Shown: in pieces, positions 57-33,789 of the stretch
Numbering within the stretch: the first letter of the stretch is position 1
How the letters are laid out: each line of letters opens with the position of its first letter
NCBI RefSeq assembly: GCF_964019385.1
Contig: NC_088655.1
Location: 5,703,337 to 5,767,336, forward strand
DNA: 64,000 nucleotides
Source: Sycon ciliatum
Taxonomy: Eukaryota; Porifera; Calcarea; Leucosolenida; Sycettidae
Reading direction: 5' to 3'
The notes under the pieces: generated by a model
Databases searched by the model: none
Seen by the model: only the letters and a program-made list of their open reading frames with translations
Told to the model about the DNA's origin: nothing
Made by a program: the position numbers and the translations under genes

Positions 57-881
57 TTGACAGCTCAGGCATGGTAGGAAATAGCACAAGATCAAAAGTT
101 CAAATAACGGAAAACGACAATGAAGAAGAAGCACAAACGGAGCAAAAGGCCGGATCGGGACGTAGGGAGCCCGCTCACCTACGTCTCCGCAGAAATTGTG
201 AGATATATGGATCACGTCGGGGAGCCCGCTCACCCGACGTGATAGAACAGCGTAACTCCGGCGGGATGTTGTGCCAAATACTGCGCCCTTTTCCGGGAAC
301 TTCACTGGCGGGCCCTTCGCAGGTCACCGCGGCGTTGCTGTACCACGCTTGCCACGCCTCCCTTTTGTGCCTTCATTTTGCGCACGGTTCCCCTATCTTT
401 TGCGCACGCCTCTCGTTCTTCTACACTCAGCTCCTATTCTTCTGCACTCAGCTCTCACTCTTTTGCGCACGGCCCTTCGTGTCTTGCACGAAGCGCGAAA
501 GGGATCATGGAAATCAATAGGACTTCACAGTCACATGATTTTGCATGAAGCAACATTTCCAGGAAGTACAGAACCTCCGGGAACATTCCTAGAACATTCC
601 ACGCGAGAACCTACCTGACCAGATTCCGGCGGTGAATCCCACGATGTGTCATGTCCAAGAGACATGACACCGACATGGGATATCACGCCTAAAAAGCCTG
701 ACACCTACATGGAACAGCTCGTGCCGCTCAACCTACATGCTCAACACGTGGCACAAGACACTGGCCAAACCATGTGATAGTATAGATTGTGACAGCTCAA
801 ACACAGAGCTGCGCTCTAACTTACATAGATCCTGCTAACACAGGACCTGTCATACTGCGAGCGTCGCGTCCAGGACGTGAC
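57..881 (-). mobile_element. Putative 3' LTR of gypsy-A, copy 1
   Basis: Read on the minus strand, the pol reading frame ends near 917 and is followed by GGCGCGGGAAA, a plausible polypurine tract. A terminus TGTCACGTCCTGG then starts at 881 and runs leftward. I cannot fix the outer LTR end because no 5' LTR partner is present. The start given here is only a candidate TG. The twin hairpins at 159-243 lie in this region. The + strand open frames in the region look fortuitous. Confidence 0.45.
159..243. other. Twin hairpins with a shared GAGCCCGCTCA loop, copy 1
   Basis: There are two perfect inverted repeats. GACGTAGG (159-166) pairs with CCTACGTC (178-185). ATCACGTCGGG (211-221) pairs with CCCGACGTGAT (233-243). 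Both enclose the identical 11-base loop GAGCCCGCTCA, in which GAGC and GCTC can pair further. The two stems differ by a compensated base pair. A diverged version of the pair lies at 33,708-33,789. The function is unknown; the position is inside the presumed gypsy-A LTR. Confidence 0.8.
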
Positions 882-916
882 ATTTCCCGCGCCATTAAAG
901 AATCACGTCCCCGTGA

Positions 917-1875
917 TTGTACTCAACCAACATGATACTCAGCGAGATACCACGGCGGCTGCCTGTTTTGGATAGGTCGTCCCCCAGGTGCCGCGATGGG
1001 TGCACCGGGCAAGTCAACTGGAGCTGCCGGAGGCACATCCAGTCCACCATAGGTTTCGGCACAAATACCGTCGTCATCGGCCGAATACAACACATCGGTA
1101 GTATCAGGCTCCTACGACCCAGAGCCGGCAGAATCATCTGCCGTCGTTAGTGGCTGCAACTCGGTTGAGTCCGTGACATCCTCTCCTACTGCTGGAAGCA
1201 GATGGTCAGGCCTCACACGGCATCTCTTCAACCGGTTTACATGCACAATCTGCAGCTTAGCTGCCCCGGCGGTGTCCCGGATATGGTCTTCACACGTTTG
1301 GAGTTGGTGACCACTTGCGTCAGCCCAGTTGCCACTGTCTTTGGGTCAGTCAACAGCTAGAAACGGGAATCTCCCCACTTAGCGGCAAGGGAAATGCCTT
1401 CGACTGCGGCTTCCAATTCAGAAATGTTAATATGCCGCTTGTCGTCAGACTTATGAAGCCACGAACCATCCTCGACGATGTCACCACCGACTTCCAACGC
1501 CAGGCCGACAGCAATATCAGATGCATCGCACCACCCTTGGCATTAGCTTTCTACATGCCACATGCCGGTAGCAGGATCGTGCTGGCTTAAACGACAAGCG
1601 AGACTCCTGCAGCATTGTACGAGATCTGCCGGTATCGGATCATCCCAGCCAAGCTTCTCCAGACATGCTAAACGCTTCAGCCAACTTCAATGAGGACAAA
1701 GCCATGATGCAACAGGGCCGTGGCTCGTCAACTGGCCACACCACTTGTATAGCTCACGTTTCGTTGTGACATCGGCAAATGCGACAGGCGATTCATCACG
1801 CCGGGAAAGGCGCACTCCACCATCCTCTGACTCATTGAGCTGCAACCCGAGAACACCAGCCGCCGACATCTCCAT
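917..1875 (-). pseudogene. gypsy-A pol 3' part: RT connection, RNase H fragment, C-terminus (copy 1)
   Basis: This is the remnant of the downstream half of a Ty3/gypsy polyprotein. Read on the minus strand it gives VLGLQLNESEDGG and KRELYKWCGQLTSHGPVASW, typical of the RT-RNase H connection. Next come an RNase H-like stretch around 1370-1445 (DDKRHINISELEAAVEGI) and a C-terminal tail with VHVNRLKRCR and NRQPPRYLAEY. The whole integrase core is missing, so RNase H is followed almost directly by the pol tail. Stop codons and frameshifts interrupt it. In copy 2 the C-terminal piece is one open frame (8521-8934). Confidence 0.75.
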
Positions 1876-1881
1876 TGCTGG

Positions 1882-2945
1882 TTAAGTTGGCAGGCTGTAG
1901 CTAGCAAGATGTTCTGTCAACACAGTCCGTTGACTCTTGGAAACAATGATGTCGTCGACATAATTATCTGTCTCGGGCAAGCTGCCGGTAGTGTACTTGA
2001 TGATGGTGTTCATGAACGTCGACGCCACACTCAGGCCAAACGCCATATGCGTCATTACGTAGAGAACACCACGCCACTCTACAACTTGGACCCGTAGCAA
2101 CTCCGGGCTGACATGGATTTGCAAGTACGCCTTGGTAATGTCCAGTAACTCAAACTCGTCAGCTTCGCACCCTTGAGCCTCCACTGGCGCATTGACTCGG
2201 CGCACACATGATATTTAGTTCCAGGGTGGGACACTGACAACTTGTTCAAGTGGCGATAGTCTAACACCGGACGCACAGGCGTAGTCGTCTTGTGCGGCTG
2301 ACTCACAGCAATCAACAGCAAGACACAGGCTGGGCGACCATGGGTGTCAGCGGTGTGCTTCACCAGCCAGCCTCTTTCAATCCACTCATCCGCAGCTGAG
2401 CAGAATTGTGTCTCCTCTTCTGCGGTAATGTTCTTCTGCGGGTACTCGCTGATTCCCGGACCATCACGGCCTTTGGGTTCTTCACCAGACTTCCATACCC
2501 ATTTAACCTTCCAACGCTTCTCGCCGTCGTCAACCTTCAGGATGACATCATTGTCGTCAGTCTCTCCTTGGACATGATGAGACAGCTTTGAAGGGGGGGG
2601 GGGGGGGGGCGTCGAGTCTGCAGGCATTGTGCAGTCATCGGCGGCTGGCTGGAGAACTTCGTTGTTAGCACTAGAGACCATACCGTCGGTCAGCTGATCC
2701 TCATACACTAGCACTCGTGTAGACCGTTCAGGAGGCGCTACAGCCGTTGATGCAACTAGTACTGGCGGGCTACTATCTGCATGGGCTGCACCGGGCCCAA
2801 TTACGACACACACGCGCTGATCGTTCGCATACTCGACAGACAGGTGGCCACACAAAGTCACCAGGTCAATGCCAATCAGTACGTCGGCGACCACTACATG
2901 TACACACAGATCAGGCACAACCACAGCATTCAATGCATACTTCAT
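1882..2945 (-). pseudogene. gypsy-A reverse transcriptase, frameshifted (copy 1)
   Basis: Two overlapping minus-strand frames together encode a Ty3/gypsy reverse transcriptase. The upstream frame (2079-2945) begins with the protease tail (VLIGIDL), then a linker, then RT fingers with VLDYRHLNKLSVSHPGT. The downstream frame (1882-2205) holds the palm: ELLDITKAYLQIHV carries the first catalytic Asp and YVDDIIV the catalytic pair. The frames are offset near 2200, so no active protein can be made. A (G)n tract at 2587-2609 lies inside the linker and is only 9-10 G long in copy 2. Confidence 0.85.
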
Positions 2946-3225
2946 GCATACTCACTGATCCGTCATGCCTCGAAAACGTGAGGGTCACTGTACCACACGT
3001 CTGCATGGTGTTGCCATCCAGCGCTACAACACTGTCACTATTCGTCAGTGGCGTCACATCGAGACCAAGGCAATGCAGCAGGGCTTCTGTTACTAACGTG
3101 CGGGTGGAGCCAGTGTCTATGACGGCTGCAGCACGCTCAGTGTCACTCGCGCTAGGACCTGCACATTCAACAAACACACGAGGTAGCTTCGGGCACGATG
3201 ATGATGCAGATGCTAGGAGGCACAC
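2911..3225 (-). pseudogene. gypsy-A aspartic protease fragment (copy 1)
   Basis: A minus-strand open frame of 104 codons carries the retroviral-type aspartic protease signature VIDTGSTRTLV, with the catalytic Asp in DTGS. It is followed by a hydrophobic strand pattern and a second conserved block (TVTLTF). The family's closing motif, VLIGIDL, sits in the next frame at about 2860-2880. A frameshift near 2930 therefore separates the two halves. It lies between the gag zinc knuckles and the RT, the expected order. Confidence 0.8.
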
Positions 3226-3282
3226 GTCCTTGGAGTAGACTGAGGCCCCAGCAACTTAGGAGCTAGCCTGTGTATCCAGCCA

Positions 3283-3609
3283 CTACTGCCTCAGCACGCA
3301 GTCCTTCTTGACATGCCCTTTCTTGTCACAGAAGCGGCAGAACAGGTCCTTGCGCCGGTGCTCTTGCTTAGCACCATTCCCTGCTAGGGATAGCTTCGGG
3401 CAATGCCTTTTGAAGCGGCTCGGTTCTCCACAATGGTAGCAAAGCCGTGGTGATGGCATGGCAACACTGTCTTGCAAAAATGTGGCAGCTGCGGACACTG
3501 CACCAACTCTGGTGCCGGTTGCTGATCGCAGTGCCCGGATCCTATCAAGGCATTCATACACCTTCAGGTCCCTACGTGCCATGGACAAACGAAAATCCTT
3601 TGGAAACAC
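3283..3609 (-). pseudogene. gypsy-A gag C-terminus with zinc knuckles (copy 1)
   Basis: This minus-strand open frame of 108 codons encodes the nucleocapsid end of gag. Two CCHC-type knuckles are visible. The second (CRFCDKKGHVKKDC) is canonical. The first (CYHCGEPSRFKRHC) has Arg where the His ligand belongs. Upstream residues (RDLKVYECLDRIRALRS) are shared with 10,861-11,187 and with a fragment at 45,560-45,687. The amino-terminal two thirds of gag are missing, replaced on the right by a tyrosine-recombinase fragment. Confidence 0.8.
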
Positions 3610-3639
3610 TCACAGCCCACTCCACATTGGACCAATTAC

Positions 3640-3832
3640 TTGCAATTAGTGCCGGCTGGCAACTATCAAGGTCCATGGCCTCCGGCATTACTTCGTGGTC
3701 AACCCCCTGTCGTTGTCCAAGTTCCAGGAGGGGCGACTGGACCTGCTGCTCCAGGGTATCGCCCGCAATCAGTGCAACACCTCCGTGCAATCCAGGGCTT
3801 CCTGCCACACTCCGGTCTATCACCAGCAGGAG
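3640..3832 (+). pseudogene. DIRS/Ngaro-type tyrosine recombinase fragment (copy 1, first)
   Basis: About 190 bases match the N-terminal part of the recombinase at 58,205-58,440. The informative frame reads VVNPLSLSKFQEGRLDLLLQ followed by GIARNQ. This is the pattern of the core-binding region of DIRS/Ngaro recombinases. It joins the gag piece of gypsy-A directly. No catalytic residues are present. Confidence 0.6.
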
Positions 3833-3988
3833 ATGTTGTGTATAGTTCTTGTCGCCGTATTGTCTCTCTCCGGTAGTGTCTCTCTGTCATCTATTATACG
3901 CATGCTCGTTGTAGATAATCAGTCTTTGTTTTGTCCCACAAGGGAATCCTGAGAGGGGAGAGAATTCTGAGGGGTCCCACAAAGGAGT

Positions 3989-3992
<4 letters not shown>

Positions 3993-4022
<30 letters not shown>

Positions 4023-4125
4023 GGATGTGTCTGTGTGTGAGTGCATGCATGCATGAGTGTGTGTGTGTGCTTGCGTGCATGTGTGCGTGTGCATCAACAT
4101 GTGTATGACTGTGGGTATGTGTGTA
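3993..4125. repeat. (TG)n tract upstream of ankyrin exon 1
   Basis: A pure TG run of about 26 bases is followed by interrupted TG/CA repeats up to the splice acceptor of the ankyrin exon. All four ankyrin exons in the window have such a tract upstream, so it belongs to the duplicated exon unit. Confidence 0.9.
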
Positions 4126-4159
4126 CATGTCTTGTCTTTAATTTTGCTGCTACTTCCAG

Positions 4160-4258
4160 GATGGTGACACACCATTACATTATGCAGCATGTAGTGGTCA
4201 TATTTCTGTAGTAGAATATCTTCTCACTTCTGGACATTCGTTGGAACCAAAGAATAAT
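4160..4258 (+). CDS. Single ankyrin-repeat exon 1
   Basis: A 99-base exon encodes exactly 33 residues of one ankyrin repeat, with the signature TPLHYAACSGHISVVEYLL followed by SGHSL and PKNN. Ankyrin repeats are helix-turn-helix protein-interaction modules. The exon is bounded by a pyrimidine-rich acceptor ending in TACTTCCAG and by the donor GTAAGT. It starts and ends on codon boundaries, so adding or skipping it keeps the frame. Copies at 11,735, 48,210 and 60,410 share the same limits, flanks and phase. No start codon or neighbouring exon can be identified. It is either an internal exon of a large ankyrin gene or a duplicated exon relic. Confidence 0.75.
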
Positions 4259-4439
4259 GTAAGTCAGATTATCCGTGATGCATTCTTATTTTTATATGAG
4301 TAGAAAGAAGAATTACGCAGGTGAATAAATTCAGTGGGTATTGACCATGCCTGTGGGTCTGCTTTACGCTAGAAATTCACAAATGGCAATTTTTTTACAA
4401 AATTTATGTCCACAAAAAAGTTTCGTGCGATTCAAATAT

Positions 4440-5681
4440 GGCCCAGAATCTGCGAAAACCAGGCTTAGGGTGAAATTTCACAAAATGACTTTTTCCCATT
4501 TTCAGCTTCTACTGGGCATGGGGGGTCAGGAAACAAAATATTACAGGTGTGGGTCGACTCATAGTGGTATTAAAAGCATCTCAAACACACCAGGGTATTG
4601 TGTTAAAAAATCCAAAAAACACACAAAATTGTTATCACAGGAAAGAAATGAAGAGAGATCCACCAGACTGAAGGAAGAGACATGGATGATTTTTGTTTAG
4701 GTGACATGACAAGGTAGGAATGTGGGGGCAGGCTTGTTGTGGCCCCTTGGTGCTGCAGGCTGTAGTGGCCATGCACAGTTCTGCATGAAATATTTTGTTT
4801 GCTCCTCACTCAGCACATTCTGGGGCTGAATACATGTGCGGCCATGCTCTGGCGCTACACACCACAAGGAAACCCGACTCCAGTTGAGATGGCACCTTTT
4901 GAAGGGCGAATCTAGTGCAACTGTTCAGAAACAAGCAGGAACACAGCCTTTCAAACTGTTCCACTGTTCATAGTAAGCGCATAGTGTGCTGGCGTGCTGC
5001 AGTATCTGCTTGGTGCTGACCAGCAAGTGAAATATCAGCACGCCGTACCGTGAATCCCTTGCAGTTAGCTGTCCAGCGAGGAAAGTCTCGAGTGGGGGCC
5101 TCTCGATTTGCTCGCTCATTCGCCTGGCATTCAGTAGCACTTCATCGCCAAGGACTTCAATTCAAAACCGTTTTCACATTGCGCTTCAAGCCATTTTCCT
5201 CGTGGATTTGCTGCAAACGTATGAGCTCCGCTGCGCGCGTCCCCTTTGCGTGAGGCCCAGAAACAGCTAGTATCTCTGTACTTCGATTGGCTGGATCGAT
5301 GTCGTCCAGGTTCTCCTCGCTATCGCCATCACGACTCTAACTGGAGACGATTTCTTCACCATATTCCGCAAGCAGCAGCTAGCGCAGAAATTTCGCCATC
5401 CTGAGTGTAGGAAATGGAATCCGTTCGATCAGCTCAAAAACTCTTCGTTGTGACTAGAGCCAGTAGAGGAGTAGCAGAGAATACTCTACTTGAAGCCCTT
5501 TGACTTCCCTGACTGCTGAAACCCTTCCTGCCATGACTGCTACTTCTTCAAACAAGCGAGATTCTCTTTGGTTCCACTTCACTGCACTCGATCGTCCACG
5601 CTACACAACCTTTTTACAAAACATGATTTTTCTCAAAAAAATGATTTTCACCCTAAGCCTGGTTTTCGCAGATTCTGGGCC
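4440..5681. mobile_element. 1,242-bp non-autonomous DNA transposon (MITE), 36-bp TIRs, ATAT duplication
   Basis: The element begins GGCCCAGAATCTGCGAAAAC and ends with its exact reverse complement. The terminal inverted repeats are 36 bases long and perfect. It is flanked by ATAT at 4436-4439 and 5682-5685. Copy 2 of the tandem unit (near 12,012-12,016) carries the uninterrupted site with one ATAT, proving insertion after the unit existed in two versions. No transposase-like frame is inside. The 4-bp duplication with GGCCC termini does not let me name a superfamily. Confidence 0.92.
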
Positions 5682-5749
5682 ATATGCTATAATACTAAGT
5701 ATTAGCACAAACTTCAGGCTCTTCAACATCATTATGAAAATTAATGTTT

Positions 5750-6045
5750 TTTGCGAGTAAACTTCCGTGCCTTCTCTGTATGTTGTTAGGTTCCTTCTCC
5801 CGTACATTGTCTCCTTCCTCATCAACAAGGTGATATAGCGGCACGAGCAAACGAGAGCAAGAACAATGAATTATGGATATTCATGATGTATATTTGTCAT
5901 GCATTTATCACCGTTGTTTTTAGCTATTCTACTTTGAGCCGGTTTTATCACCTCATTGCTGTACATAATTCATTGTATATGCTCTTGTTTGCTCTTGCTT
6001 GTATATCACCTGAGGAGAAGGTACGGAAGTTTACTCGCGAAACCA
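5750..6045. repeat. Large imperfect inverted repeat downstream of ankyrin exon 1
   Basis: The left arm (GCGAGTAAACTTCCGTGCC, then GGTGATATA and GAGCAAACGAGAGCAAGAAC) returns reversed between about 5960 and 6045. Each arm is roughly 100 bases with gaps and the loop is AT-rich. The left arm recurs downstream of ankyrin exon 4 at 60,573-60,710. The full structure recurs at about 12,080-12,377. Confidence 0.7.
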
Positions 6046-6298
6046 TTAGATTGTTATGAATGTTGTTGAAGAGCCTAAGGTTTGTCCTATCAACATAACG
6101 AGCAGGTTTCCTTTGCTTCATAAGCCTGAAAAACATTTAATGAGTTACTTGCGTCACATCAAATGTGCTCGTAAGTCCAATGTCTTGAAGAGATCTGGTA
6201 TATGGTTTCACGTTGGCAATTCGAGGATCGCAGCATCTATGCTTCCTCCGGAAACTCTCTTGAGTTCTGGACTCCAGGTGCCATTGTATGATCTACAA

Positions 6299-6480
6299 GC
6301 GCATGTCATCCAAGTGCCGGCTGGCAACTATCAAGGTCCATGGCCTCCGGCATTACTTCGTGGTCAACCCCCTGTCGTTGTCCCCGTTCCGGGAGGGGCG
6401 ACTGGACCTGCTGCTCCAGGGTATCGCCCGCAACCAGTGCAACACCTCCTCACAATCCAGGGCTTCCTGCCACACTCTGC
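6299..6480 (+). pseudogene. Tyrosine recombinase fragment (copy 1, second)
   Basis: This is a second match to the core-binding part of the recombinase at 58.2 kb, preceded by the in-frame residues IYKRMSSKCRLATIKV. It lacks the MITE that interrupts the 58-kb copy at this point. It ends in short CCACACT repeats, and no catalytic region follows. Confidence 0.6.
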
Positions 6481-6789
6481 CACACTGCCACACTTCCTGC
6501 CACACTCTGCACATGAGACAACCTGCTGGTGAGGCGCTGGTTGCAGGGGTATTTCTGACGACTACGAGAAAACGTAGTTAGGAGACTCCGGGTGAGACGA
6601 TCCACTTGCGACATCAACTAATTACTTGTACGAGTACGTTCTCTCCACCATTTTCTGCCCTCAGCTGCCAGCCGCATTGCGCGGGGCGACGCGCTCGATT
6701 TCCAACACGACTGGGGATTACTGCGAGCAGAAAATGCGTCTGGATCGGCAAGGCACGGGGCAGAACCTGAGAACAATCTGCCGGAATGC

Positions 6790-7090
6790 TGCTCGGCAAA
6801 ATGTTCTGCGTGAAGATACTGGGACTGGAAAAATTGCCGGTTTGTTTGCAAGCCAAGTGAAAGAAACGAAAGCTGTAGCTAGCCGACAATGCCGGGAGAG
6901 CAAGAAACTTACAGGACAAACTGACGGAAAAGTTGAATGTTCCGTGTGAAGATACGTATATACCGGGACTGGAAAACTGCAGGTTTGTTTGCCGGCCAGG
7001 TGACAAGAATCAAAAGCTTTAGCAAGACGACAATGCCAAGAGAGAAAGAAACTAACTGGACAAACTGACGGAAAAGCTAAAACTGCATTT
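6790..7090. repeat. Tandem duplication of about 150 bp
   Basis: Two adjacent blocks share the order GGGACTGGAAAA, then CAGGTTTGTTTGC, then GACAATGCC, then GGACAAACTGACGGAAAAG. They start near 6820 and 6958. Open frames on both strands look repetitive for this reason and have no recognisable domain. The same arrangement sits at about 13,140-13,410. Confidence 0.8.
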
Positions 7091-7546
7091 TGGCACATCA
7101 AGAAATCAACTGCAAAGAAACGCTCCTTCACATCCCGACAGTTCAATAGCTTGAAGAAGACACGTCTTCCGATATGACACCATTACAGGATTTCCTTAAA
7201 ATTTCGCGAGCTTGCAAATCGTGCAGGGACAGTCACCTGACACACATTCACAGCAACATGCCAATATTGCGCGTGTGCCAGGGCTAACTAGGCTTTGCTG
7301 CACAAAGCCCACATTTTGTATTAATATTTCGTTGCCCGTCCTGATCACTCACAACCCAACAAAATCCAACCGCCAGACGGTCGACCAATATAGTCGACGA
7401 CCCACCTTAGTGCTCTGCTCACCTTGATTCACACTTGACAACGAAGCGAAGACAGGTAAGGATTCTGAGAATCTCAGTCGATCAATCAAGTCCGGGAGAG
7501 AGTTATGTGAGTTATGGTGAAGACATCGTTCATTTTATACACTAGA

Positions 7547-7548
<2 letters not shown>

Positions 7549-7600
<52 letters not shown>
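7549..7600. repeat. (GA)n microsatellite at the tandem junction
   Basis: An uninterrupted run of GA dinucleotides of about 50 bases lies exactly where copy 1 passes into copy 2. The right end of copy 2 keeps only GAAGAGAGA. This suggests slippage expansion at, or exchange through, the tract. Confidence 0.95.
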
Positions 7601-7602
<2 letters not shown>

Positions 7603-8479
7603 TCGTGCAAAGCATTGCGTGATTGTTTCTTCGAAGGCGGCATGTAATACAGGTTTGACAGCTCAGGCATGGTAGGAAATAGCACAAGATCAAAAGTTCA
7701 AATAACGGAGAACGACAATGAAGAAGAAGCACAAACGGAGCAAAAGGCCGGATCGGGACGTAGGGAGCCCGCTCACCTACGTCTCCGCAGAAATTGTGAG
7801 ATATATGGATCACGTCGGGGAGCTCGCTCACCCGACGTGATAGAACAGCGTAACTCCGGCGGGATGTTGTGCCGTATACTGCGCCCTTTTCCGGGAACTT
7901 CACCCGCGGGCCCTTCACGGGTCACCGCGGCGTTGCTGTACCACGCTTGCCACGCCTCTCTTTTGCGCCTTCATTTTGCGCACGGTTCCCCTCTCTTTTG
8001 CGCACGCCTCTCGGTCTTCTACACTCAGCTCCTATTCTTCTGCACTCAGCTCTCACTCTTTTGCGCACGGCCCTTCGTGTCTTGCAGGAAGCGTGAAAGG
8101 GATCATGGAAATCAATAGGACTTCACAGTCACATGATTTTGCATGAAGCTACATTTCCAGGAAGGAAAGAACCTCCGGGAACATTCCTAGAACATTCCAC
8201 GCGAGAACCTACCTGACCAGATTCCGGCGGTGAATCCCACGATGTGTCATGTCCAAGAGACATGACACCGACATGGGATATCACGCCTAAAAAGCCTGAC
8301 ACCTACATGGAACAGCTCGTGCCGCTCAACCTACATGCTCAACACGTGGCACAAGACACTGGCCAAACCATGTGATAGTATAGATTGTGACAGCTCAAAC
8401 ACAGAGCTGCGCACTAACTTACATAGATCCTGCTACCACAGGACCTGTCATACTGCGAGCGTCGCGTCCAGGACGTGAC
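7600..8479 (-). mobile_element. Putative 3' LTR of gypsy-A, copy 2
   Basis: This is the counterpart of 57-881, including the TGTCACG terminus at 8479 next to GGCGCGGGAAA. Only the end adjoining pol is supported. Confidence 0.45.
7757..7841. other. Twin hairpins, copy 2
   Basis: These are the counterpart of 159-243 in the duplicated unit. The first hairpin spans 7757-7783 and the second 7809-7841. Both stems are unchanged. The only change is one base in the second loop, now GAGCTCGCTCA. Confidence 0.8.
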
Positions 8480-8520
8480 ATTTCCCGCGCCATTAAAGAA
8501 TAACGTCCCCGTGATTGTAC

Positions 8521-8934
8521 TCAACCAACATGATACTCAGCGAGATACCGCGGCGGCTGCCTGTTTTGGATAGGTCGTCCCCCAGGTGCCGCGATGGGTG
8601 CACCGGTCAAGTCAACTGGAGCTGCCGGAGGCACATCCAGTCCACCATAGGTTTCGGCACAAATACCGTCGTCATCTGCCGAATACAACACATCGGTAGT
8701 ATCAGGCTCATACGACCCAGAGCCGGCAGAATCATCTGCCGTCGTTAGTGGCTGCAAATCGGTTGAGTCCGTGACATCCTCTCCTACTGCTGGAAGCAGA
8801 TGGTCAGGCCTCACACGGCATCTCTTCAACCGGTTTACATGCACAATCTGCAGCTTAGCTGCCCCGGCGGTGTCCCGGATATGGTCTTCACACGTTTGGA
8901 GTTGGTGACCACTTGCTGTCTTTGGGTCAGTCAA
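8521..8934 (-). pseudogene. gypsy-A pol C-terminal region (copy 2)
   Basis: An uninterrupted 137-codon minus-strand frame carries the family's C-terminal features: IVHVNRLKRCRVRPDH near residue 30 and NRQPPRYLAEY at the end. Acidic, low-complexity residues fill the middle. In intact elements this follows the integrase core. Here the preceding sequence is an RNase H remnant, so the integrase catalytic domain has been deleted. In copy 1 the same region is broken. Confidence 0.7.
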
Positions 8935-8944
8935 CAGCTAGAAA

Positions 8945-9451
8945 CGGGAATCTCCCCACTTAGCGGCAAGGGAATTGCCTTCGACTGCGGTTTCCAATTC
9001 AGAATTGTTAATATGCCGCTTGTCGTCAGACTTATGAAGCCACGAACCATCCTCGACGATGTCACCACCGACTTCCAACGCCAGGCCGACAGCAATAGCA
9101 GATGCATCGCACCACCCTTGGCATTAGCTTTCTACATGCCACATGCCGGTAGCAAGATCGTGCTGGCTTAAAACGACAAGCGAGACTCCTGCAGCATTGT
9201 ACGAGATCTGCCGGTATCGGATCATCCCAGCCAAGCTTCTCCAGACACGCTAAACGCTTCAGCCAACTTCAATGAGGACAAAGCCATGATGCAACAGGGC
9301 CGTGGCTCGTCAACTGGCCACACCACTTGTATAGCTCACGTTTCGTCGTGACATCGGCAAATGCGACAGGCGATTCATCACGCCGGGACAGGCGCACTCC
9401 ACCATCCTCTGACTCATTGAGCTGCAACCCGAGAACACGTGCCGCCGACAT
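8945..9451 (-). pseudogene. gypsy-A RNase H and RT-connection fragment (copy 2)
   Basis: The minus-strand frame at 9269-9451 gives VLGLQLNESEDGG and TKRELYKWCGQL. Downstream frames retain the RNase H-like SELEAAVEG segment. Frames are interrupted as in copy 1. Confidence 0.65.
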
Positions 9452-13410: not shown

Positions 13411-13897
13411 AAAACTGCTTTTTGACACATCAAGAAATCAACTGCAAAGAAACGCTCCTTCACATCCCGACAGTTCAAGAGCTCGAAGAAGACAATCATG
13501 TCTTCCGATAAGACACTATTACAGGATTTCCGTAAAATTTCGCGAGCTTGCAAATCGTGCAGGCACAGTTACGTGAGACACATTCACAGCAACATGCCAA
13601 TATTGCGCGTGTGCCAGGGCTAACTAGGCTTTGCTGCACAAAGCCCACATTTTGTATTAATATGTGTTCACATCCCTGCGAGGTTCGTTGCCCGTCCTGA
13701 TCACTCACAACCCAACCAAATCCAACCGCCAGACGGTCGACCAATATAGTCGACGACCCAATTTAGTGGTCTGCTCACCTTGATTCACACTTGACAACGA
13801 AGCGAAGACAGGTAAGGATTCTGAGAATCTCAGTCGATCAATCAAGTCCGGGAGAGAGTTATGTGAGTTATGGTGAAGACATCAGTCATTTTATACA

Positions 13898-24463: not shown

Positions 24464-25852
24464 AATGCACACACACACACACAGACTCCTCGCCAAACGT
24501 CAACATTCCTTGGGCAAAATCCAGCACGCCACCATGCTCAAAGAGGAAATCTGATCCAAGAATGACATCTTTGTGGATGGCATCAGACAACACAAAGGAG
24601 TGCACAAATGAGCACTTGTCCAGGCAGAATGCAAGCTCTACAGACCCCAACACAGGCAACTGTTCTCCGTTCACAGCACATAAACTCGGAGCAGACTCGA
24701 GTGTGTGCTCAGAGTCAAACAACGAAGTGAACAAATTTGCGTGCAAATACGATACACTTGAGCCGGAGTCTATTAATCCAGACACCGTTGCAGTCCGGAA
24801 ACATACATCTACATGGAAGACAATTGGCGAAATAGCATGCACACAGACATCATGCAAATGGAGGGGCTCGTTCTCCTCGACTTGCTGCTGCCCCGCGTCA
24901 CCAGTCAATTGTCGTTTTTTCGGTTCATATGAGGAAAATAAGCGAGGAAGTGGCCAACTTCTCCGCAGCCATAGCACGCGCGGTCGTGCTGCATGGCTCC
25001 TCGCAAACCTCCGCCTCCGGAACGACCACGACCACGGCCACCCCGCAGCTGTCCTTGCTGTTGGCTGACACCGTTCGTGACACCGACAGCTCTCTCTAGT
25101 GCGGAGAGATGAGAATCAAAAAAGGATGCCGGCCAGGCAATCGCGTTCTGTGTGTTCCTGGTCGCCATTTTGGTTCTCCGTGGCGATGCGCGGCCGGATG
25201 GGGCTGTACTCCGAGTGCCTTGGTCGACTGGGCGCAGGAGTCGACTGTTGTTGGTGTTGCGGAGCTGTTGAAAAAACACCGACTGAGCGTATCCCGATCG
25301 GGATTGCTCCCGGGTGTGGATGGCACCCACCTCAATCGCCTTTTAGACGGCTGCATCCAACGACGTAGATCGTGGAGATGCAAGTGCCAGACGCAGGTCT
25401 TTCGTTGCCTGGCCGTCGATGAACAACTGGAGCAGCATTGAGTCCAGGAGCTGCCCACTCTGCCCGGGATAAGCCTGGCGTGCCACACGTTGCAGCTCCT
25501 GCGCGAACGCATTCTGGGTTTCAGTGGCCAACTTCACTCTCTGTCGGAGCGTCGCCTCGTGCATCAGGGCCAGTTGCGGAGGTTCCAGTCTCGCGCGCAG
25601 CGCTTCGACTGCCTCGCGATAGGTGATGTGGGGCGAGTTGGCGACGATGTCCGTCAACATCTCGTGTGGTACGCCAACCAGACGCGCCGGCAACAGGCGC
25701 AAACATTGTTCATGGGTGTAGCCTGACAGGGCACATGCGTTATCAAAGTGGCTCATATAATTTACAAAATATTGTCCAGGTTGACTGCCAAATGTGTCTG
25801 GGAGCAAGATCGGTTTGGGCAGTGGACGTGCATGTGGTGCGTCTGTGTCCAT
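24464..25852 (-). pseudogene. gypsy-E gag and protease, 3' truncated
   Basis: The minus strand encodes gag from a probable ATG at 25,852 (MDTDAPHARPLPKP). The capsid-like stretch has FVNYMSHFDNACALSGYTHEQ. In another frame (24,905-25,330) a Gly/Arg-rich segment is followed by one zinc knuckle, CYGCGEVGHFLAYF, whose last Cys is Phe. The frame at 24,462-24,977 carries an aspartic protease (GLIDSGSSVSYL, later VILGSDFLFEHGG). The protease ends in an (AC)n microsatellite where RT should begin, so pol is missing. Confidence 0.8.
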
Positions 25853-26238
25853 GGTGTCCGGCAAGAGAAAACGATGGGACAACCCGTGTACCGGCGAACT
25901 CTCGCGCTCATCAGTGTAGACTCTACTACCCAGCTAGCAGTTATCCTAACAACAGACAGCAGTCAGTATGTAATCATGCACAAAACACGGACACAGAAAA
26001 TGTTCTGAAAAAATGTTTGGCCAGACAGGTCGGCGCCAATGCATGACCTATGGACTGTAAACAATCCATGCAACAAGAAAACGACGAGCAGAAAGAAACA
26101 CAATGCAGAAAGGAAAATATCGACGAAGAGAGTGGATGAGGATATGGTGGTTCACTTGCGTGGGCCTTCGTGGTTCTTCATAGTAGGCGATCTCCGAAGG
26201 CGTACACACTCCGCCAGCGATGTAGACGTGGACGTTTT

Positions 26239-26250
26239 CCGCTGCCACCA
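26239..26250 (-). promoter_or_regulatory. Primer-binding site of gypsy-E
   Basis: On the minus strand TGGTGGCAGCGG follows the LTR end after one base. It occupies the position of a tRNA primer-binding site, between the LTR and gag. Confidence 0.7.
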
Positions 26251-26251
26251 G

Positions 26252-26497
26252 TGTTAGCTGCTCCCGGTAGTTCCCTCACACCGGAACACAGGGATTTTAT
26301 ATGATTGGATTATAGAAGTATTCGACAAGAGTGTAGACAGAAGGAGAACAGGACAACGACAACTCAAGACTAGACTAGAACAGAACAGAACAGAACGGGA
26401 GCATGCGCTCTTCTATGTGAGTGGCTCATTCCAAGGGGAACGAGAGGGAAATACGAATAGTGAGTATACAGGTCGTAGCATACATACACCTATTACA
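26252..26497 (-). repeat. 5' LTR of gypsy-E
   Basis: The interval has ends TGTTAGCTGC and CCTATTACA on the + strand, so on the minus strand it starts TGTAATAG and ends CTAACA. It is placed directly against the primer-binding site. TGTAATAG also opens the LTRs at 39,313 and 35,034. The outer boundary is inferred from this terminus only, since no second LTR is present. Confidence 0.6.
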
Positions 26498-26729
26498 ACT
26501 GCAAGCTCGGGTATACGAATCCTGGTATCTCTTCTGAATACGAAAATTTAATGCTGAAGTTGACGATGGCAAGAACAAAGTGTTCTCAAATTCCTAAAAT
26601 GCGCTACTTGTGGCGCATGTTGCTGCGAAAGTAGCAGGTATGAAAACACCAACAAAATCGGCGAAGCGATTGCCAAGGAAAAATGGTGAGGAACTGCTTA
26701 CCCTATTCCGCTGGACAGTCATTACAGAG

Positions 26730-27943
26730 TACAGTGCGTATCGGTTATAGTGTGGTTGTATACAAGAATATACTGCCTACAAGAATGAACACTCCTTTTT
26801 TCATAATCATAACACATATTTTATGTGTATATTTATATTTAAAAGCAGTATTATCGCATAGTAGAATATATCGGCCCTAAGAATGGATTTTATGCAGCAA
26901 AATATGCCAGATTAGTGCAAAGTGTATAATAATAATAATAATAATAGCACATTTCGCGTAGTAGAGCACTAAAATAAAGAAATTCAGTGTTTTTCCGCTT
27001 CTGTCTTGTGAGCATCATCAGCTAGGTGTAGTAGCTGCTGATACCCATTTCTCGCCGGGTGTCGAGCTGCACAGTTTCCTCCAGTCTGTCTTGTCTGCTG
27101 CTTGTTGTCGGCACCTGGAAAGGTCTTCCATGGTCTTCATTGGCACACCCAGCTTATTTAGCTGAGCAACCCGACTTGTGGCCAGTGTCAACCTTGGCCG
27201 TCCACGAGGTGCTTTGTTGCCCTTGTCAAAATAGCCGCTCATGGCTACTTGCGGTGGCGTATCCGTGTCCATCCGTAGCACATGACCGGTCATTCGTAGT
27301 CGCCTACATGCAACTGTGTCTGATATAGGGTTGCTCTTGGTTCTGCGGTATAGGTCGTCGTTTGAAATTGTGTCTGGGTATCGTATTCCAAGGAGTGATC
27401 GCATTTGACGCCGGTGGAATGCGTCTGCCTTGGCCATTGCTGTTGACGATAATTCCCAGGTCTCGCAATTGTACAGGAATGTCGGCAGTACGATAGCGTT
27501 GTACAGGCGTAAGCGTGTCTTCTCCGCTACTTTATCTCTACGCAGCCATATGGCAAAGTGTATCGCCTGTAGTAATAACATCTGTGCTCTGTGCATACTC
27601 AATACAATAATATTCAACACAAAAAGAGAGGTATGTCCAAGGGAGCATTGGAGAATCACTTTTTCTGTCCAGTCGGACTCTAGCTCTTTCTTCCGACTTA
27701 TCTCGTATCTGCTGCTCCGCAGTCTAGTCGCCTAGCACGACCGGTCGACCGCGAGTCTGATCCGTGTGTATCATGTGTACGTGTTCACATGACAAACGTG
27801 CGCGCAATGCGCGCATGCGCATATGATTATGTCACACGTGCATTATGATATGTCACACGTGATTTATCGTGTGTAAGAAATATCGGCAATAAGAATCAAA
27901 TGTTGTTTTTCAAACACTCACGCTATAACCGATACCTACTGTA
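26730..27943. mobile_element. pogo/Tigger-like element with TA target duplication
   Basis: The left end TACAGTGCGTATCGGTTATAG (26,730 onward) and the right end CTATAACCGATACCTACTGTA (to 27,943) are inverted repeats starting CAGT and flanked by TA, as in the pogo branch of Tc1/mariner. No transposase is visible. Much of the interior is an RTE-like LINE fragment that landed inside. Confidence 0.75.
26925..27610 (-). pseudogene. RTE-like LINE 3' end (RT C-terminal region) nested in the pogo-like element
   Basis: A minus-strand frame ending at 27,018 reads KTRLRLYNAIVLPTFLYNCETW, then HRRQMRSLLGIRYPD, then RRLRMTGHVLRM, then GRPRLTLATSR. This succession is typical of the post-RT region of RTE/BovB-like LINEs and is uninterrupted for about 200 residues. 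Beyond the stop lies an untranslated stretch and then a (TTA)n tail at about 26,928-26,946, a short-repeat tail as expected. The catalytic RT domain is absent. Codons upstream of about 27,600 no longer match. Confidence 0.75.
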
Positions 27944-28397
27944 CTTGAAAATACTCGCTTACCTTCATTGCCTGCCACCTGGAGGCATGGATCGCTTGAA
28001 AACGAAGTATCTTGACCTGAATTTGAACGCGCGTCTTGTTCAGCATATTTTTGAGTGCTGAAGAGTCTGCCTCAAAATCTGATGAAGACGTCGACCTTAG
28101 CTGCAAGTGCAGCAAAGCTGGAGGCCACAAACTAAAGCTTGGTCCGTCGACAATGATGTGCCTAAATTTCTAGCTGATTTCTTTTCCCTTCGAGTCGACA
28201 AAATAATTTCGAAAAATCGCTCTGGGAAGCGATAATTTTAATGACGCGGATGACGTATACACATGCATGTTTTACTATGCGCTGCTGATCGCATCGAATC
28301 AATATGACGATTCTGCACTACATGCAACGCTATGTACGCGCTTAGGGCCGGGTTCCACTGGGGCTCCGCTGCTCCGCTGCTCGCGGCTTACTACGCG
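27944..28397. other. No gene seen
   Basis: I see no coding signal, repeat or RNA gene that I can support here. Confidence 0.4.
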
Positions 28398-29105
28398 TCA
28401 TCTGCTGCTGCCGTGGTGGTCATGGTAGAATATCACTAATGCCCACCACTTCTTCCAACTCGATTTCCACACAGTCTCGCCACTCACTTCTTCCATGCTA
28501 TCCAGTATCGCACTTCTCATTTCCTTAGCTTCTACGCCTTGAGCTTCTACGTCTTGCGCTTCTACGTCTTGCGCCTCTACGTCTTGCGCCTCTGCGTCTT
28601 GCGCCTCTACGTATTGCGCCTCTACGTCTTGCGCCTCAATGTCTTGCGCCTCTACGTCTTGCGCTTCTACGTCTTGCGCCTCTACATCGTTCGGCCGAGA
28701 CTCCAGCTGCTTCTGAGCGACTCCGACCGATGTCGCCATGCACTGTACCGATGCAGTGGGCCTTGGATCTGATCCTCCCACTGGCTTTTTAAAATACTCT
28801 TCTGACCGCTGCTTGTCTGTAAGCAAAGTCTTACACGCCTTGCCCGGCGTCCTTTCGAGCGAGGCAAGCAAATCTCGCTTTGCTTCCTCATATGTACTGC
28901 TGGCGATGCGCTCGTTCATCTTCTTGAGCGTTTCGTTAAGCTCTGTGCAGAGCGCACCCTCTTGCCGTCTAGCACTGCGCCCTTCAAACTCCTCGCAAGG
29001 TGGGAGCCTCTTTTTCACATGTTCCCTCAACTCATCGCCTTCCAATCCTAACAGAATTCCATTGGCGATAAAGCGGGCTTCAATGACCCATAGTTCCTGT
29101 GCCAT
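28398..29105 (-). CDS. gag-like ORF with DVEAQ pentapeptide repeats
   Basis: A 235-codon open frame starts at the ATG at 29,105 (MAQELWVIEARF). The start LLGLEGDELREHVKKR resembles the opening of gag proteins of many invertebrate gypsy elements (LGL.G.ELREFV). Upstream on the same strand are TTTGGCGACTACACCAGG, a likely primer-binding region, and an LTR-like end GGTTCACAACA. The middle holds about twelve consecutive DVEAQ-type pentapeptides encoded by a 15-bp minisatellite (28,540-28,690). No zinc knuckle or pol follows. Either a gag of a truncated LTR element whose repeats expanded, or an unrelated protein. Confidence 0.5.
   Translation of the reverse strand: MAQELWVIEARFIANGILLGLEGDELREHVKKRLPPCEEFEGRSARRQEGALCTELNETLKKMNERIASSTYEEAKRDLLASLERTPGKACKTLLTDKQRSEEYFKKPVGGSDPRPTASVQCMATSVGVAQKQLESRPNDVEAQDVEAQDVEAQDIEAQDVEAQYVEAQDAEAQDVEAQDVEAQDVEAQGVEAKEMRSAILDSMEEVSGETVWKSSWKKWWALVIFYHDHHGSSR
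28540..28690. repeat. 15-bp minisatellite inside the gag-like ORF
   Basis: About ten to twelve copies of a unit like GCCTCTACGTCTTGC are present, with substitutions that keep a 15-base period and an open frame. Confidence 0.92.
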
Positions 29106-29136
29106 GCTCGCTTCGTATCCTGGTGTAGTCGCCAAA

Positions 29137-29800
29137 TGTTGTGAACCCTCTGGTTCTCTAAAGTGTCAGGAACGAGGAAAACTATTTATTCTCAACAGTA
29201 TATTTCACTTCTATCGACTAATAATAATGAACAATGAATAACTAACACTAAAACCACCAGGTAGTTATAGTGTGAAAATGACAGCGTATATGAGAAAGCA
29301 TACACATACAACATACAACTACAGCGCACACAGCAAATCGCACATAGCGCATGTAGCGTATACTACGTCGTAATCATCAGTGGTACAGCAAAGTAGAGAT
29401 ATACCTGCATTGAAACGAACACAATGTCACAAGCTAGAAGGCCTTTCACTCTCGAGAACTTGTGGTTTCGCAACAGTGGTGACAATGTGATTTGGGCACC
29501 TAGGAGCACGTGAGCGCGAGTTCAATTGGGATTCAAGTAGGAAGGGAGCGTCTCAGCTTTTCCGGACTAAGACTCAGGACTCAGCACTCAGCACCCCGAA
29601 GACTACAACTGGTGAAATTTTGATTTTTGCCTTAACTTCCCCTTTAAGTACTGTTGTTGTTGTTGATTTTTATTTTGCTTCGCAAGGCCAAACGGGCAAT
29701 GGTGCCCAATTCTATGGAAGCTAATTTCAAAAGGGAGAGAGCTACGGGGAGAGAGAAAGAGAGAGAGAGAGAGAGGGGGGGAGGGAGGGAGATGATAAGC
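29137..29800 (-). other. LTR-like start followed by unassigned sequence
   Basis: A terminus TGTTGTGAACCC begins at 29,137 on the + strand beside the gag-like ORF's primer-binding region. Its far end cannot be fixed. The rest shows no gene. A GA-rich tract lies at 29,736-29,792. Confidence 0.4.
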
Positions 29801-29801
29801 A

Positions 29802-29868
29802 ATTTTGTAGCGTCAACAGAGCGATTTTGCAGTGTCAATAGAGCGATTTTGAAGCATCAACAGAGGGA
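29802..29868. repeat. Three tandem copies of a 25-bp unit
   Basis: Units of the form GCGATTTTG.AG..TCAA.AGA are repeated three times just beyond the 3' end of the LINE ORF at 29,950. They may be its 3' tail repeats. Confidence 0.7.
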
Positions 29869-29949
29869 ACACAAAGAGTTCATAACTTGAGCGCACAAGC
29901 ACGCAGAGAAGAGTAAATGACGTGGTGTGTGGACGGGAAAAGTCAGCAT

Positions 29950-31638
29950 TCATTGCAAGGTGTAGGGGATGGAGGCAAGCTTAAATTGCTGGGCAGCCTT
30001 GATCTCCCTTACACTCCTTGGGAGAGCGTTCCAGGCCAAGGCTGCCTGAAAGGCCAGGCGAGATCTGCCGGCTTCTGACTGTGCCGAGGGGACAGTGAGG
30101 CCCCTGGAAACCTGGTGCCGGGTGGTGCTGCCAGCTGATGGTGAGAAGAGGTCCTGGAGGACACTGCTGGCTTTCCCATTGACACAGCGCCACACCAGGA
30201 CGAGCCGCTTCTGGGCGTAGCACTCCCGAACTCTGTACAGGGACATCCGTTCGAGCAGAGGCTGAGCCGAGGTGTGAGGCGGCAAACCGTATACCGCTCT
30301 CGCCGCTCGGTTCTGCAGGACCTGAAGGCGATCAAGCTGCGAAACCTTGAGGGAGGAAGAGAAGGCGTTAGACCCATATAGGAGGTCAGGCATGATGACT
30401 GACCTCACATACTGGATGCGACTACTGAGGCTCAGACATCTGCGGGACCGCCACAATGCTCCAATCTTCTGCACAACTTTCTTCGCCATCGCGTCAACAT
30501 GGGGGTCCCACTTCACAGCGGCGTCAAGGGTCACGCCGAGGTACCTTGCTGTTGGGCTCAGGGGAAGCTCTGTCTGGTTGCAGCGGACAGCGACATGCTG
30601 ACCCGCATTGCGTTGTGGTACAATTGACAGGACCTGGCTCTTCTTGTCATTTAGTAGCAGATGTCGATGCTTGAGCCAGTCAGCGACGTTGGTGACGGCC
30701 CCTGACAGGCAGGCTGATGTGGCTAGCACTGATTTTCTGTGGCAGTGCACTGCAATGTCATCGGCAAATTGCAGAGATGGAGCAGGATGGGCTATGGCAG
30801 GGACATCACGGGTGTACATGCTAAACAGGATCGGTCCTAGGACCGAGCCCTGTGGTACACCAGATGAGCACTTAGCAGCAACACTGTAGGTGGGGCCAAT
30901 GCGCACTTGCTGGGTTCGATCGCTTAAGTAGCTGCAGAACCAGCGAAGGGAGGCATTGTCCAGGCCGAGATCGAATAGGTCCCGGACCAGTTGGCTGTGA
31001 TTGACCTTATCAAAGGCTTTTGACATGTCGATTAGGCAGACGCCTGTGGTCAACTTGTCGTCCCGGGCCTTTAAGATGGCATCTGTTGCTACAACTAGGG
31101 CGTCCTCTGTGGAGTGCTCACGGCGGAAGGCAAACTGAGTCGGTGGTATGGCACATGATCGCTCCAGATGTGCAACAAGTTGCTTCTGGACTATCTTCTA
31201 GAGTAGTTTGGATACGATCGGCAGGAGCGACACAGGACGATAATTTGCAGCTACCGATGGATCGCCAGCTTTGAAGAGAGGGCTTATTACAGCATGTTTG
31301 AAAGCCAGAGGGACTTCACCATGCCTCAGCGATGAGCTGAAGAGCACTGAAAGCGATGGAGCCAACAGGTCAGCGCAAGCACGTAGCAGACACCCAGGAA
31401 TCCCATCACTGCCTGTGGCTTTGCAGGGATTTATCCGTTCCAGGAGGTGCTTGACCTCATCTGGGGTGGTTGACTGGAAGGTCAGCATTGAGCCTTGCGG
31501 CTGTGGACCAATGGGAATCTGGAGCTGTGCCGGACGGGACGGATCATGTACAATGCTGTGGAAGGCATCCGAGACTTCTGTGATGTCGCACGTTGGCTGA
31601 TGATGTTGACGAGAACGGCTAGTGACAGAGTTGATCAC
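29950..31638 (-). pseudogene. CR1/jockey-type LINE RT with one nonsense codon
   Basis: Two minus-strand frames in the same register (31,198-31,638 and 29,950 to about 31,198) read through as one RT if a single TAG at about 31,198 is ignored. The motifs are in order: INPCKATGSDGIP, FKAGDPSVAANYRPVSLLP, TQFAFRREHST, CLIDMSKAFDKVNH (catalytic Asp), SGVPQGSVLGPILF, LQFADDIAV (catalytic Asp pair), RYLGVTLDAAVKWD and the thumb LQNRAARAVYGL. The stop falls where KLLEKIVQ is expected, so it looks like a one-base change of a Glu codon. The endonuclease half is missing. Confidence 0.85.
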
Positions 31639-31639
31639 G

Positions 31640-32200
31640 GACCAACTCTGTCTGTGTACTGGCTCGTGCTACTTCAACTGCTGACTCTGAGATGACTGCA
31701 GATGGAGCTGCTGGACAGCCTGCAGTTCAGGGCGAAGTGCAAGCCTGTCAAACCACTGACATGCTTTCACCGATACTGCAGAAGGAACGCAGTGAGACCA
31801 GGACGCCAATCCAGGAGAGCAACAGATTTTTCAGTGGCAGAGGGAAGGCACCTCATCAGTCACCTGACACTGACAAAGATGGATTCACCATGGCGTCAGG
31901 GAAGCATACATTCCCAGCAACTCCCCGGGCTGACAAACTCGCCAACGCTTTCTCCACTGCAGCTGAAAGTGACGAAGTTTCAGTTGCTGAATATACGGGT
32001 AACAGTGGCGCACAGGTCACAATCAACGGAATAACATTAATTTTGAGTGCTAACTTGACAACAGTGCCATCTACCGACAGCCTCTGCTCCTCATACCCTA
32101 GTTCCTCTAAATCCGAACGCTACAGCACTCCAACCCACTGTTACAAGAACAGTGCTTGCAAAATTGGAGCAAAATGTGACCATTGCATTCCTCAACATTA
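31640..32200 (+). other. Unassigned open frame upstream of a LINE endonuclease
   Basis: A 169-codon + strand frame (31,692-32,201) precedes the endonuclease fragment on the same strand and could be ORF1 of that LINE. It contains a Cys-rich end (CKIGAKCDHC) but no motif I recognise. Composition alone does not prove coding. Confidence 0.3.
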
Positions 32201-32880
32201 ATTTTGTAGTCTACGCTACAAAGTACATGAACTGTCGGACTTGGTGCATTCGATGGACTGGGACATTGTCGGTGTGGCCGTGACTTGGTTCACCAACACA
32301 GTAGCTAACAATGTGATCGATATATCTGGATACAGCCTTGCCAGGCTGGATCGAGCCGGCCTACCCGGTGGAGGTGTGTGCCTGTATTACAGGGCTACTC
32401 TTCCTGTCACCATACAGCCAGATCTGAAGATCTGAAGGTGGACGGTATTGAAGGCGTGTGGATCAGTCTGCACCACTCTAAACAGAGGCACCTTTTTGCG
32501 TGTATTTATCACCCCCTTGCTGAATCAATTCATTACCTGGACAGATTTGAGCAGGCTCTTCACCGGGCTTCAGTGGTATCACCATCTGTCACCCTGCTCG
32601 GTGACTTCAACATTAATGTTAGCTCAGCTGCAACACCCCAGCTCCACCATTTCAATGATGGAATTCACTCTTTCGGTTTGATAAATCTAGTATCTTTCCC
32701 AACCCGAATACTAGTAACCCCAAGATGTCCAGCCAGCAAGACACGGACCTGATCCCCACCAGTAGCCCTGTTACAGTCTCCTGCAATGTCACACCCTGTA
32801 CTCTGAGTGATCACTTGGCCGTACATGCTAGACTGGACCTTGCGCTACTGTCTGCTAAGCATCAACAATCCTCACATCGC
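32200..32880 (+). pseudogene. LINE apurinic-like endonuclease remnant, frameshifted
   Basis: The + strand frames together give a LINE EEP-type endonuclease: DIVGVAVTWFTNTV (where ETW is usual), then YSLARLDRAGLPGGGVCLYY, then in another frame SVTLLGDFNINV, and TLSDHLAVHARLD at the end. GDFN and SDH are the catalytic motifs. Frame changes occur near 32,430 and 32,720. No RT follows on this strand. The RT at 29.95-31.6 kb is on the opposite strand, so this is a different insertion. Confidence 0.7.
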
Positions 32881-33067
32881 CAGGGAGGAAGTTTAATGGG
32901 GTACTAGCTGTGCTAGTACTTGTTAGCAACAATCCGAACTAGCACACACACTGCACTGCATTGCTTTGTACTGCATTCAAGACTGACGTCATGCGCTCTG
33001 TTTTGTTGCGTAATCACAAATGGCACCAGCCGGTTTTGCGGAAAAGAAAAACAAATCTTGCTTGCCC

Positions 33068-33163
33068 TGTTGTGCTCTTCCGGACAACGGGTCGTGCTTC
33101 AGCAGTGTTTCTTTTAGGTGCTCTTCTAGACAATGGATCGTGCTTCAGCAGTGTTTCTTTTCC
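33068..33163. repeat. Tandem duplication of about 49 bp
   Basis: The segment GTGCTCTTC ... TCGTGCTTCAGCAGTGTTTCTTTT occurs twice in succession, from about 33,070 and about 33,119, with a few substitutions. Confidence 0.85.
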
Positions 33164-33217
33164 TTTCGTAGTTTTGCTGCCAGCCCGAGCGTCACCTCGA
33201 CACTTTATTTCTTCAGT

Positions 33218-33620
33218 ATGTCTGACCTAACTGTCGACAATGTCAAGGCAATGCCTTGCCAAGCCCTCCGCGGCCAGCTTTCTCAGCGCGGCTCTATTCC
33301 GAAAGAAAACTGAGTAAAAGTATTTTACAAGACCGTTTGCTGCTACAGCCAGCCCTTGGTAGTGAGGTCTGCTCCGGCCAAGAGAACCAGCAACATGACA
33401 GTACGGACACGCCTCGCGAGCCCAGAAGCCCGACTGTCACCAATGCCTCCTCCTCCAGCTCAGGTCACTCGGGCTCAACAGATCTCTGCGCTCTCGTACG
33501 GGACGAGGTGTAGTCGGCTTTGTCGGCCGCCACTACGGAGAGAATTGTGCCGCTCCTCACCCAAGGCCAAGGCAATGCGGCTGCTGCTGCCACTGCGCCA
33601 GCCCAAGCTCCTATAACACA
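33218..33620 (+). pseudogene. Possible SAP-like gag fragment
   Basis: The frame around 33,218 starts MSDLTVDNVKAMPCQALRGQL and, after a frame change, KLSKSILQDRLL. The pattern (two short helices around LR..L..RG then L..RL) is SAP-like and occurs at the start of some retrotransposon gag proteins. Downstream frames are Pro/Ser/Ala-rich with no domain. Weak evidence. Confidence 0.3.
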
Positions 33621-33707
33621 CCCCATCACCGCGCAAGGTCAAGGGTATCATGCAAGAAGAGCGAAGAACACCGCAGAACTTACCCATCAGAAGCCGCTGA
33701 GCATTGG

Positions 33708-33789
33708 CATGTTGGGTGAGCGGACTATCCAACGTGACCCTCATATACGCACATTTTACTCTGACGTGGGCGAGCGGGCTCCCCACGTC
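33708..33789. other. Diverged twin hairpins (third locus)
   Basis: CATGTTGG (33,708-33,715) pairs with CCAACGTG (33,729-33,736) around GTGAGCGGACTAT. GACGTGGG (33,763-33,770) pairs with CCCACGTC (33,782-33,789) around CGAGCGGGCTC. Spacing, loops and order match the reverse complement of 159-243. The stems differ from it by paired changes. Confidence 0.75.

Follow-up and report, generated by a model that had tools for sequence, protein, structure and literature searches.

Twin hairpins with a common loop in the long terminal repeats of two retrotransposon families of the sponge Sycon ciliatum

We analysed a stretch of 64,000 nucleotides from the calcareous sponge Sycon ciliatum (contig NC_088655.1, positions 5,703,337 to 5,767,336, forward strand; hereafter the window), in which four hairpins with a paired variable stem position had been predicted at two diverged loci. 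The hairpins lie in the long terminal repeats (LTRs) of two retrotransposon families, called A and B here, and very probably constitute a cis module that has been kept in the LTR core. On the sense strand of the elements the order at every locus is hairpin h2, a gap containing the sequence CATATA, and hairpin h1, the whole spanning about 82 nt. The hairpins follow the consensus (C or G)ACGT-N-GG(G)-T-GAG-CGGG-CTC-CC(C)-N'-ACGT(G or C), with the T bulged. Between the commonest forms of the two families, 4 of 56 hairpin bases differ, and these are exactly two compensatory pairs (C:G to T:A in h2 and A:T to G:C in h1). Our preferred reading, to which we give a probability of roughly 40%, is that the module acts through base pairing in the transcript and that the pairing itself is selected.

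A check of the sequence found the hairpins where the original prediction had placed them. Counting from the outermost base pair, family A carries h1 at 159–185 and h2 at 213–241 (its stem reaches 211–243) on the minus strand, on either side of the CATATA at 204–209, and again h1 at 7,757–7,783 and h2 at 7,811–7,839 (loop GAGCGAGCTC), also on the minus strand. Family B carries h2 at 33,708–33,736, CATATA at 33,742–33,747 and h1 at 33,763–33,789, all on the plus strand. The position of CATATA, a putative promoter box, is kept in the LTRs of both families. Read on the sense strand, the variable pair N:N' is A:T in A-h1, C:G in A-h2, G:C in B-h1 and T:A in B-h2, four states with the partner matched each time, and the gap between the hairpins is 27 nt in A and 26 nt in B; both points had been predicted. 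In both families alike, the stem of h1 has G:C as its outermost pair and that of h2 has C:G, and the stem of h2 is one base pair longer; it is by this flipped pair and one inserted pair that the paralogous hairpins differ, while the bulged T and the loop have the same orientation in both. The prediction had allowed one mismatch in one stem, and this is the T.G wobble of the window's B-h2, but the same hairpin also has GGACTAT in place of GGGCTCC beside the loop, which breaks its inner pairs.

These hairpins are not independent chance palindromes, a possibility that the original prediction had named and that we rejected on motif counts, folding and the paired differences between families. A degenerate motif combining loop and arm matched the window 6 times against 0.16 expected, and none of 100 shuffles reached 6; the 10-base loop by itself, searched at up to 2 mismatches, was not enriched there (46 against 44.75 expected). 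Relative to shuffled sequences, RNA folding gave z-scores of −3.4 for A-h1, −4.6 for A-h2, −3.4 for B-h2 and −2.9 for B-h1, and −4.1 for the whole block of A. With DNA folding, the scores were −3.2, −5.6, −1.9 and −2.9 in the same order, B-h2 being the exception to better-than-shuffled folding. When the genome (538 Mb, 313 contigs) was scanned with the motif ACGTNGGGAGCCCGCTCACC at up to 2 mismatches, we obtained 199 matches against 5 for the reversed control. All 100 listed of these were fetched. Many were paired about 2.9 kb apart and some 5.5 or 8.0 kb apart, a spacing explained by the fetched loci, where the motif sits in LTRs. As the prediction had it, no named element of this form came to light: an Rfam search of the window returned 0 matches at gathering score, so that a known Rfam element was rejected, as was a tRNA gene. 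An exact pattern scan of viral contigs gave 0 matches, and three matches in bacterial genome contigs (model scores of 12–21 bits, best E-value 0.004) were taken as chance.

Family A is an autonomous Ty3/gypsy-like LTR retrotransposon. In the element at locus L012, the LTRs are 1,137 bp long and 99.8% identical over 1,072 aligned bases, and an open reading frame (ORF) of 1,399 aa encodes aspartic protease, reverse transcriptase, RNaseH and integrase in that order (Pfam, in three pieces, each pol domain above cut-off in at least one model). An upstream ORF had weak matches to Retrotrans_gag (19.8 bits) and zf-CCHC (19.0 bits), both under the curated cut-offs. The start of the A LTR at this locus (2045–2073, minus strand) also holds a further ACGT palindrome, TGTCACGTCCTGGACGTGAC. 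In the window, the first A LTR (1–882, minus strand) runs past the left end; blastn with the L012 LTR covered 884 of its 1,137 positions there and 1,135 in the flank L028. It is accompanied on the same strand by a broken protease and reverse transcriptase remnant at 1,885–3,177 (tblastn with P0121–P0124), a second LTR at 7,328–8,480 (84% to the L012 LTR) and the end fragment of a third at 13,668–13,872 (83%). A 7.6-kb tandem repeat in the window is thus an array of LTR, interior, LTR, interior and LTR fragment. The predicted duplicate at 7,757–7,841 does hold the hairpins but belongs to the next LTR of that array, and we rejected it as an independent copy.

Family B appears from its sequence to be a short non-autonomous LTR partner of A. 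The one B element examined for ORFs, at L024, has LTRs of 1,079 bp that are 99.9% identical, an interior of about 1.86 kb and a longest ORF of 148 aa. Target duplications of 4 bp flank four B elements (L013, L024, L026 and L027) and were absent or ambiguous at others of 20 loci. The window's B locus is an old partial LTR (33,636–34,186, plus strand), 73% like positions 453–1079 of a young B LTR. The primer-binding site (TTTGGTGCTGTGACCAGG) and polypurine tract (GGCGGGGGAAA) beside the LTRs are identical in A and B, and their positions give the sense strand as minus for the window's A and plus for its B; the strand of the protease–reverse transcriptase remnant agrees for A. L024 (C1:51491900-51497800) and L025 (C1:51522600-51528500) lie about 31 kb apart with the same flanking bases and target duplication, and one is therefore probably a segmental duplicate. 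The B elements L021 4890–6001 and L023 4898–6001 directly adjoin short tandem repeat arrays. Other LTR families with further hairpin types (ACGTYGGTGAGCNNGCTC) may exist.

The hairpin block is one of the few parts that the two LTRs share. Alignment is confined to their first third (70%) and to a stretch of 110 bp that includes the hairpins (76%; blastn, E ≤0.01), the hairpins spanning LTR positions 645–728 of 1137 in A and 523–604 of 1079 in B. Over whole elements, sharing also takes in one piece of pol, the region from the pol end up to and including the polypurine tract, and the primer-binding site together with the LTR end. CATATA, at LTR position 677 in A and 557 in B, is the only TATA-like site inside any aligned block of the LTRs. 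The B LTR has a second such site, TATAAA at 775, with TCAGT 31 nt downstream at 806; a promoter there would lie downstream of both hairpins. Old as it is, the B copy in the window has only 5 hairpin bases of 56 that differ from the young B LTR, by a count made by eye. Two further observations are not used as evidence. Position-wise divergence among B LTRs is 0.01–0.02 in the hairpin stretch against a mean of 0.04, but other stretches are low as well, and the search pattern itself had fixed h1. A copy without h2 (L016:3777-3864) was dropped as evidence on the transcription start, its similarity beginning only about 11 nt after the TATA, by eye.

Further copies were gathered and fitted with a covariance model, as the original prediction had proposed. 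The model gave 103 matches in 85 sources, 51 of them distinct (the copy at L016:3777 lies outside alignment A1, which holds 20 of 21 segments, but inside the 103), and 97.9% of stem cells pair. The commonest segment of A occurs in 4 copies and that of B in 39. In a simulation with two random substitutions per hairpin, mutation bias ignored, the chance of exactly two compensatory pairs was about 1e-4; the ungapped spacer between the hairpins differs at 10 of 25 bases. No stem change between the two common forms is unpaired. Cells with a change on both sides of a pair numbered 22. Slid registers gave 0–5 such cells, and shuffles averaged 5.0, with none of 500 reaching 22; four pairs had such a double change, a number matched by 10 of 500 shuffles. 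At the fetched loci, with the right arm left free, the variable pair of h1 was A:T in 16 copies, A.C in 1, G:C in 83 and G.T in 1, and that of h2 was C:G in 16, C.A in 2, out of register in 2, G.A in 1 and T:A in 75, with four copies of repeat C (described below) kept separate. These tallies leave out L001–L003 (bacterial), L028 and L029 (overlapping other sources), and antisense or out-of-register readings of h2, namely rows with a right arm starting AC or AT plus one row (T, C) with arm CAAC. A search for N=C (ACGTCGGN{0,1}TGAGCGGGCTC) gave 19 places, all of them h2 on inspection of all 19. Family A accounts for 18; the other is in the B copy L087, whose C stands opposite a mismatched A. Most copies had been gathered with a pattern that fixes much of h1 and does not include h2, so that conservation of h1 within families is partly ascertainment.

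Paired change around a constant loop is the pattern that selection on pairing would leave, and between the families it is unlikely by chance. Several observations weigh against our preferred reading, however, and the prediction of full covariation must be narrowed to few events, at two or three pairs. Twenty of the 22 double-change cells are the single split between A and B at the two N pairs, and the remaining two are single cells at pairs 11–65 and 13–63. Further pair types are no more numerous than in shuffles: 12 were counted where shuffles gave 12.2, and 456 of the 500 equalled or exceeded the count. Within families, almost all changes are single and unpaired, N:N' being nearly fixed in each; the original prediction had counted unpaired stem changes in further copies against itself, and such change within families is as expected of dead insertions. 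G-to-A and C-to-T decay occur alike in stem CpGs, and there is therefore no sign of tolerated G.U. Folding of the whole block as RNA is weak for the window's B copy (z = −1.8). The position of the TATA-like box fits a DNA site, as does a third repeat, here called repeat C, in which the outer right arm is missing. Of all the results, repeat C argues most against pairing as a strict requirement.

Repeat C came from a variant-loop search that gave 10 places, three of them already known; the seven new ones comprised two B-like, one A-like and four repeat C copies (L097, L100, L102 and L103). A fifth copy lies at about 7557 in L015 (~7550–7620), with its left arm changed. The repeat reads TCACGT(G/T)GGTGAGCGAGCTCCCCGGAATA..CACTTCCATATAT; it retains the left arm, bulge and loop (ACGTNGG-loop-CCCC) together with the TATA stretch CCATATAT, and a short inner hairpin stays. 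No h1 was seen downstream in the sequence pieces examined. Aligned locally with A-h2 and its TATA box, L103 scored 27.5 against a maximum of 16 in 300 shuffles, and L097, L100 and L102 scored 19.5–22 against shuffle maxima of 15.5–17.

The sequence itself leaves RNA structure and DNA site undecided, and the hairpins could instead belong to the promoter, as a pair of palindromes that flank the LTR TATA and bind a dimeric host factor, with symmetry kept because one subunit contacts each half-site and RNA structure a by-product. We consider this somewhat unlikely. It would explain the position of the module, around the only TATA-like site of an aligned block, and it would explain repeat C; by arithmetic, a start about 30 nt past the TATA would land in h1. 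Half-site contact would not, however, be expected to leave N free and yet matched by N', nor to let the two palindromes of one LTR differ in N. The bulge and loop are moreover asymmetric, and B has its other TATAAA with the downstream TCAGT.

The paired changes might also have arisen in single mutation events, by template switching at an imperfect palindrome that copies one arm onto the other without selection on structure. One study of RNA hairpins (PMC8794818) describes template switching as giving rise both to compensatory changes and to insertions in the stem, and notes that loops of four bases are enriched; its authors consider the part that it plays in the maintenance of short stems less clear. 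The sponge hairpins likewise show an added pair and a loop of four bases, and reverse transcription would give extra chances for such events, but decayed copies have not been repaired, and the process gives no account of the survival of the block in an LTR that for the most part does not align. We regard it as quite improbable. Luck and inheritance, with a duplicated palindrome passed to two LTR lineages that came to differ in pairs by accident, seem highly improbable: all A and B copies do descend from two LTR lineages, and copy number itself is therefore no evidence, but the common forms lack any unpaired hairpin difference, the motif count exceeds shuffles, and the old B copy of the window has retained its hairpins better than the rest of its LTR.

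Pairing in the transcript, the reading that we prefer, would account both for the matching of N' to an otherwise free N and for the fixed orientation of bulge and loop. Two U-bulged, CGGG-capped RNA hairpins would form in the element transcript. Both lie in the 3' LTR and would be part of the full-length RNA if the poly(A) site is downstream of them, and, with CATATA as the promoter, h1 may also lie close to the 5' end of the RNA. The constant loop and bulge might then be read by a host factor or by one of A's own proteins, and B, which shares little else with A, could thereby use the machinery of A. The primer-binding site, polypurine tract, LTR ends and hairpin block that the two families have in common suggest a possible dependence of B on A. 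That the hairpins are a recognition signal shared in trans, by which A machinery packages or expresses non-autonomous B while loop and bulge are read and the stem drifts in pairs, is a further step that we think rather unlikely.

Hairpins in LTRs are known in general, TAR among them. Like TAR-like hairpins of retroviral R regions, those described here are bulged LTR stem-loops, possibly near the RNA start; they differ in being two copies, with no trans-activator known. Retroviral double-hairpin packaging signals likewise consist of two neighbouring hairpins with the same loop but sit in the leader, whereas the sponge pair is inside the LTR. B resembles TRIM and LARD non-autonomous elements in its near-identical LTR pairs, its primer-binding site and polypurine tract as in A, and the lack of a long ORF (L024), and differs from them in keeping pol-related pieces and LTRs of about 1.08 kb; the comparison was with these classes rather than named families. 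A is like other animal Metaviridae (Ty3/gypsy) in its LTR pair, primer-binding site, polypurine tract, TG..CA ends and protease–reverse transcriptase–RNaseH–integrase order, and unlike them in its LTR, which is about 1.1 kb long and has a TATA-like box between two hairpins with the same loop. An LTR structure survey (PMC3601003) gives AATAAA as conserved in the LTRs of animal Metaviridae and ties conservation in long R regions to stem-loops; neither of the two LTRs examined here, one from A and one from B, contains AATAAA. A literature search that covered few subscription papers found no description of paired hairpins with a common loop on either side of an LTR TATA box.

The window contains other features of note. 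An open ORF of 985 aa at 50,864–53,821 (minus strand) encodes the endonuclease and reverse transcriptase domains of a non-LTR retrotransposon, and 75% of the ORF is matched by one public protein at 99% identity. An ORF for a DUF1759 protein (37,781–39,343, minus strand) adjoins the end of a gypsy pol with integrase and chromodomain (39,549–41,408, minus strand), and a tandem array of 10.3 copies of a 15-base unit (28,531–28,685) lies within a minus-strand ORF.

Most of the LTR and interior sequence has diverged between A and B; what stays common marks the parts that matter, and the twin-hairpin block is among the few. It is a small candidate signal for expression or packaging in an animal outside the usual model species, and offers a compact setting in which to separate selected pairing from template-switch repair. 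If the signal is indeed shared in trans, it would be a duplicated TAR-like or packaging-like element around the LTR core promoter.

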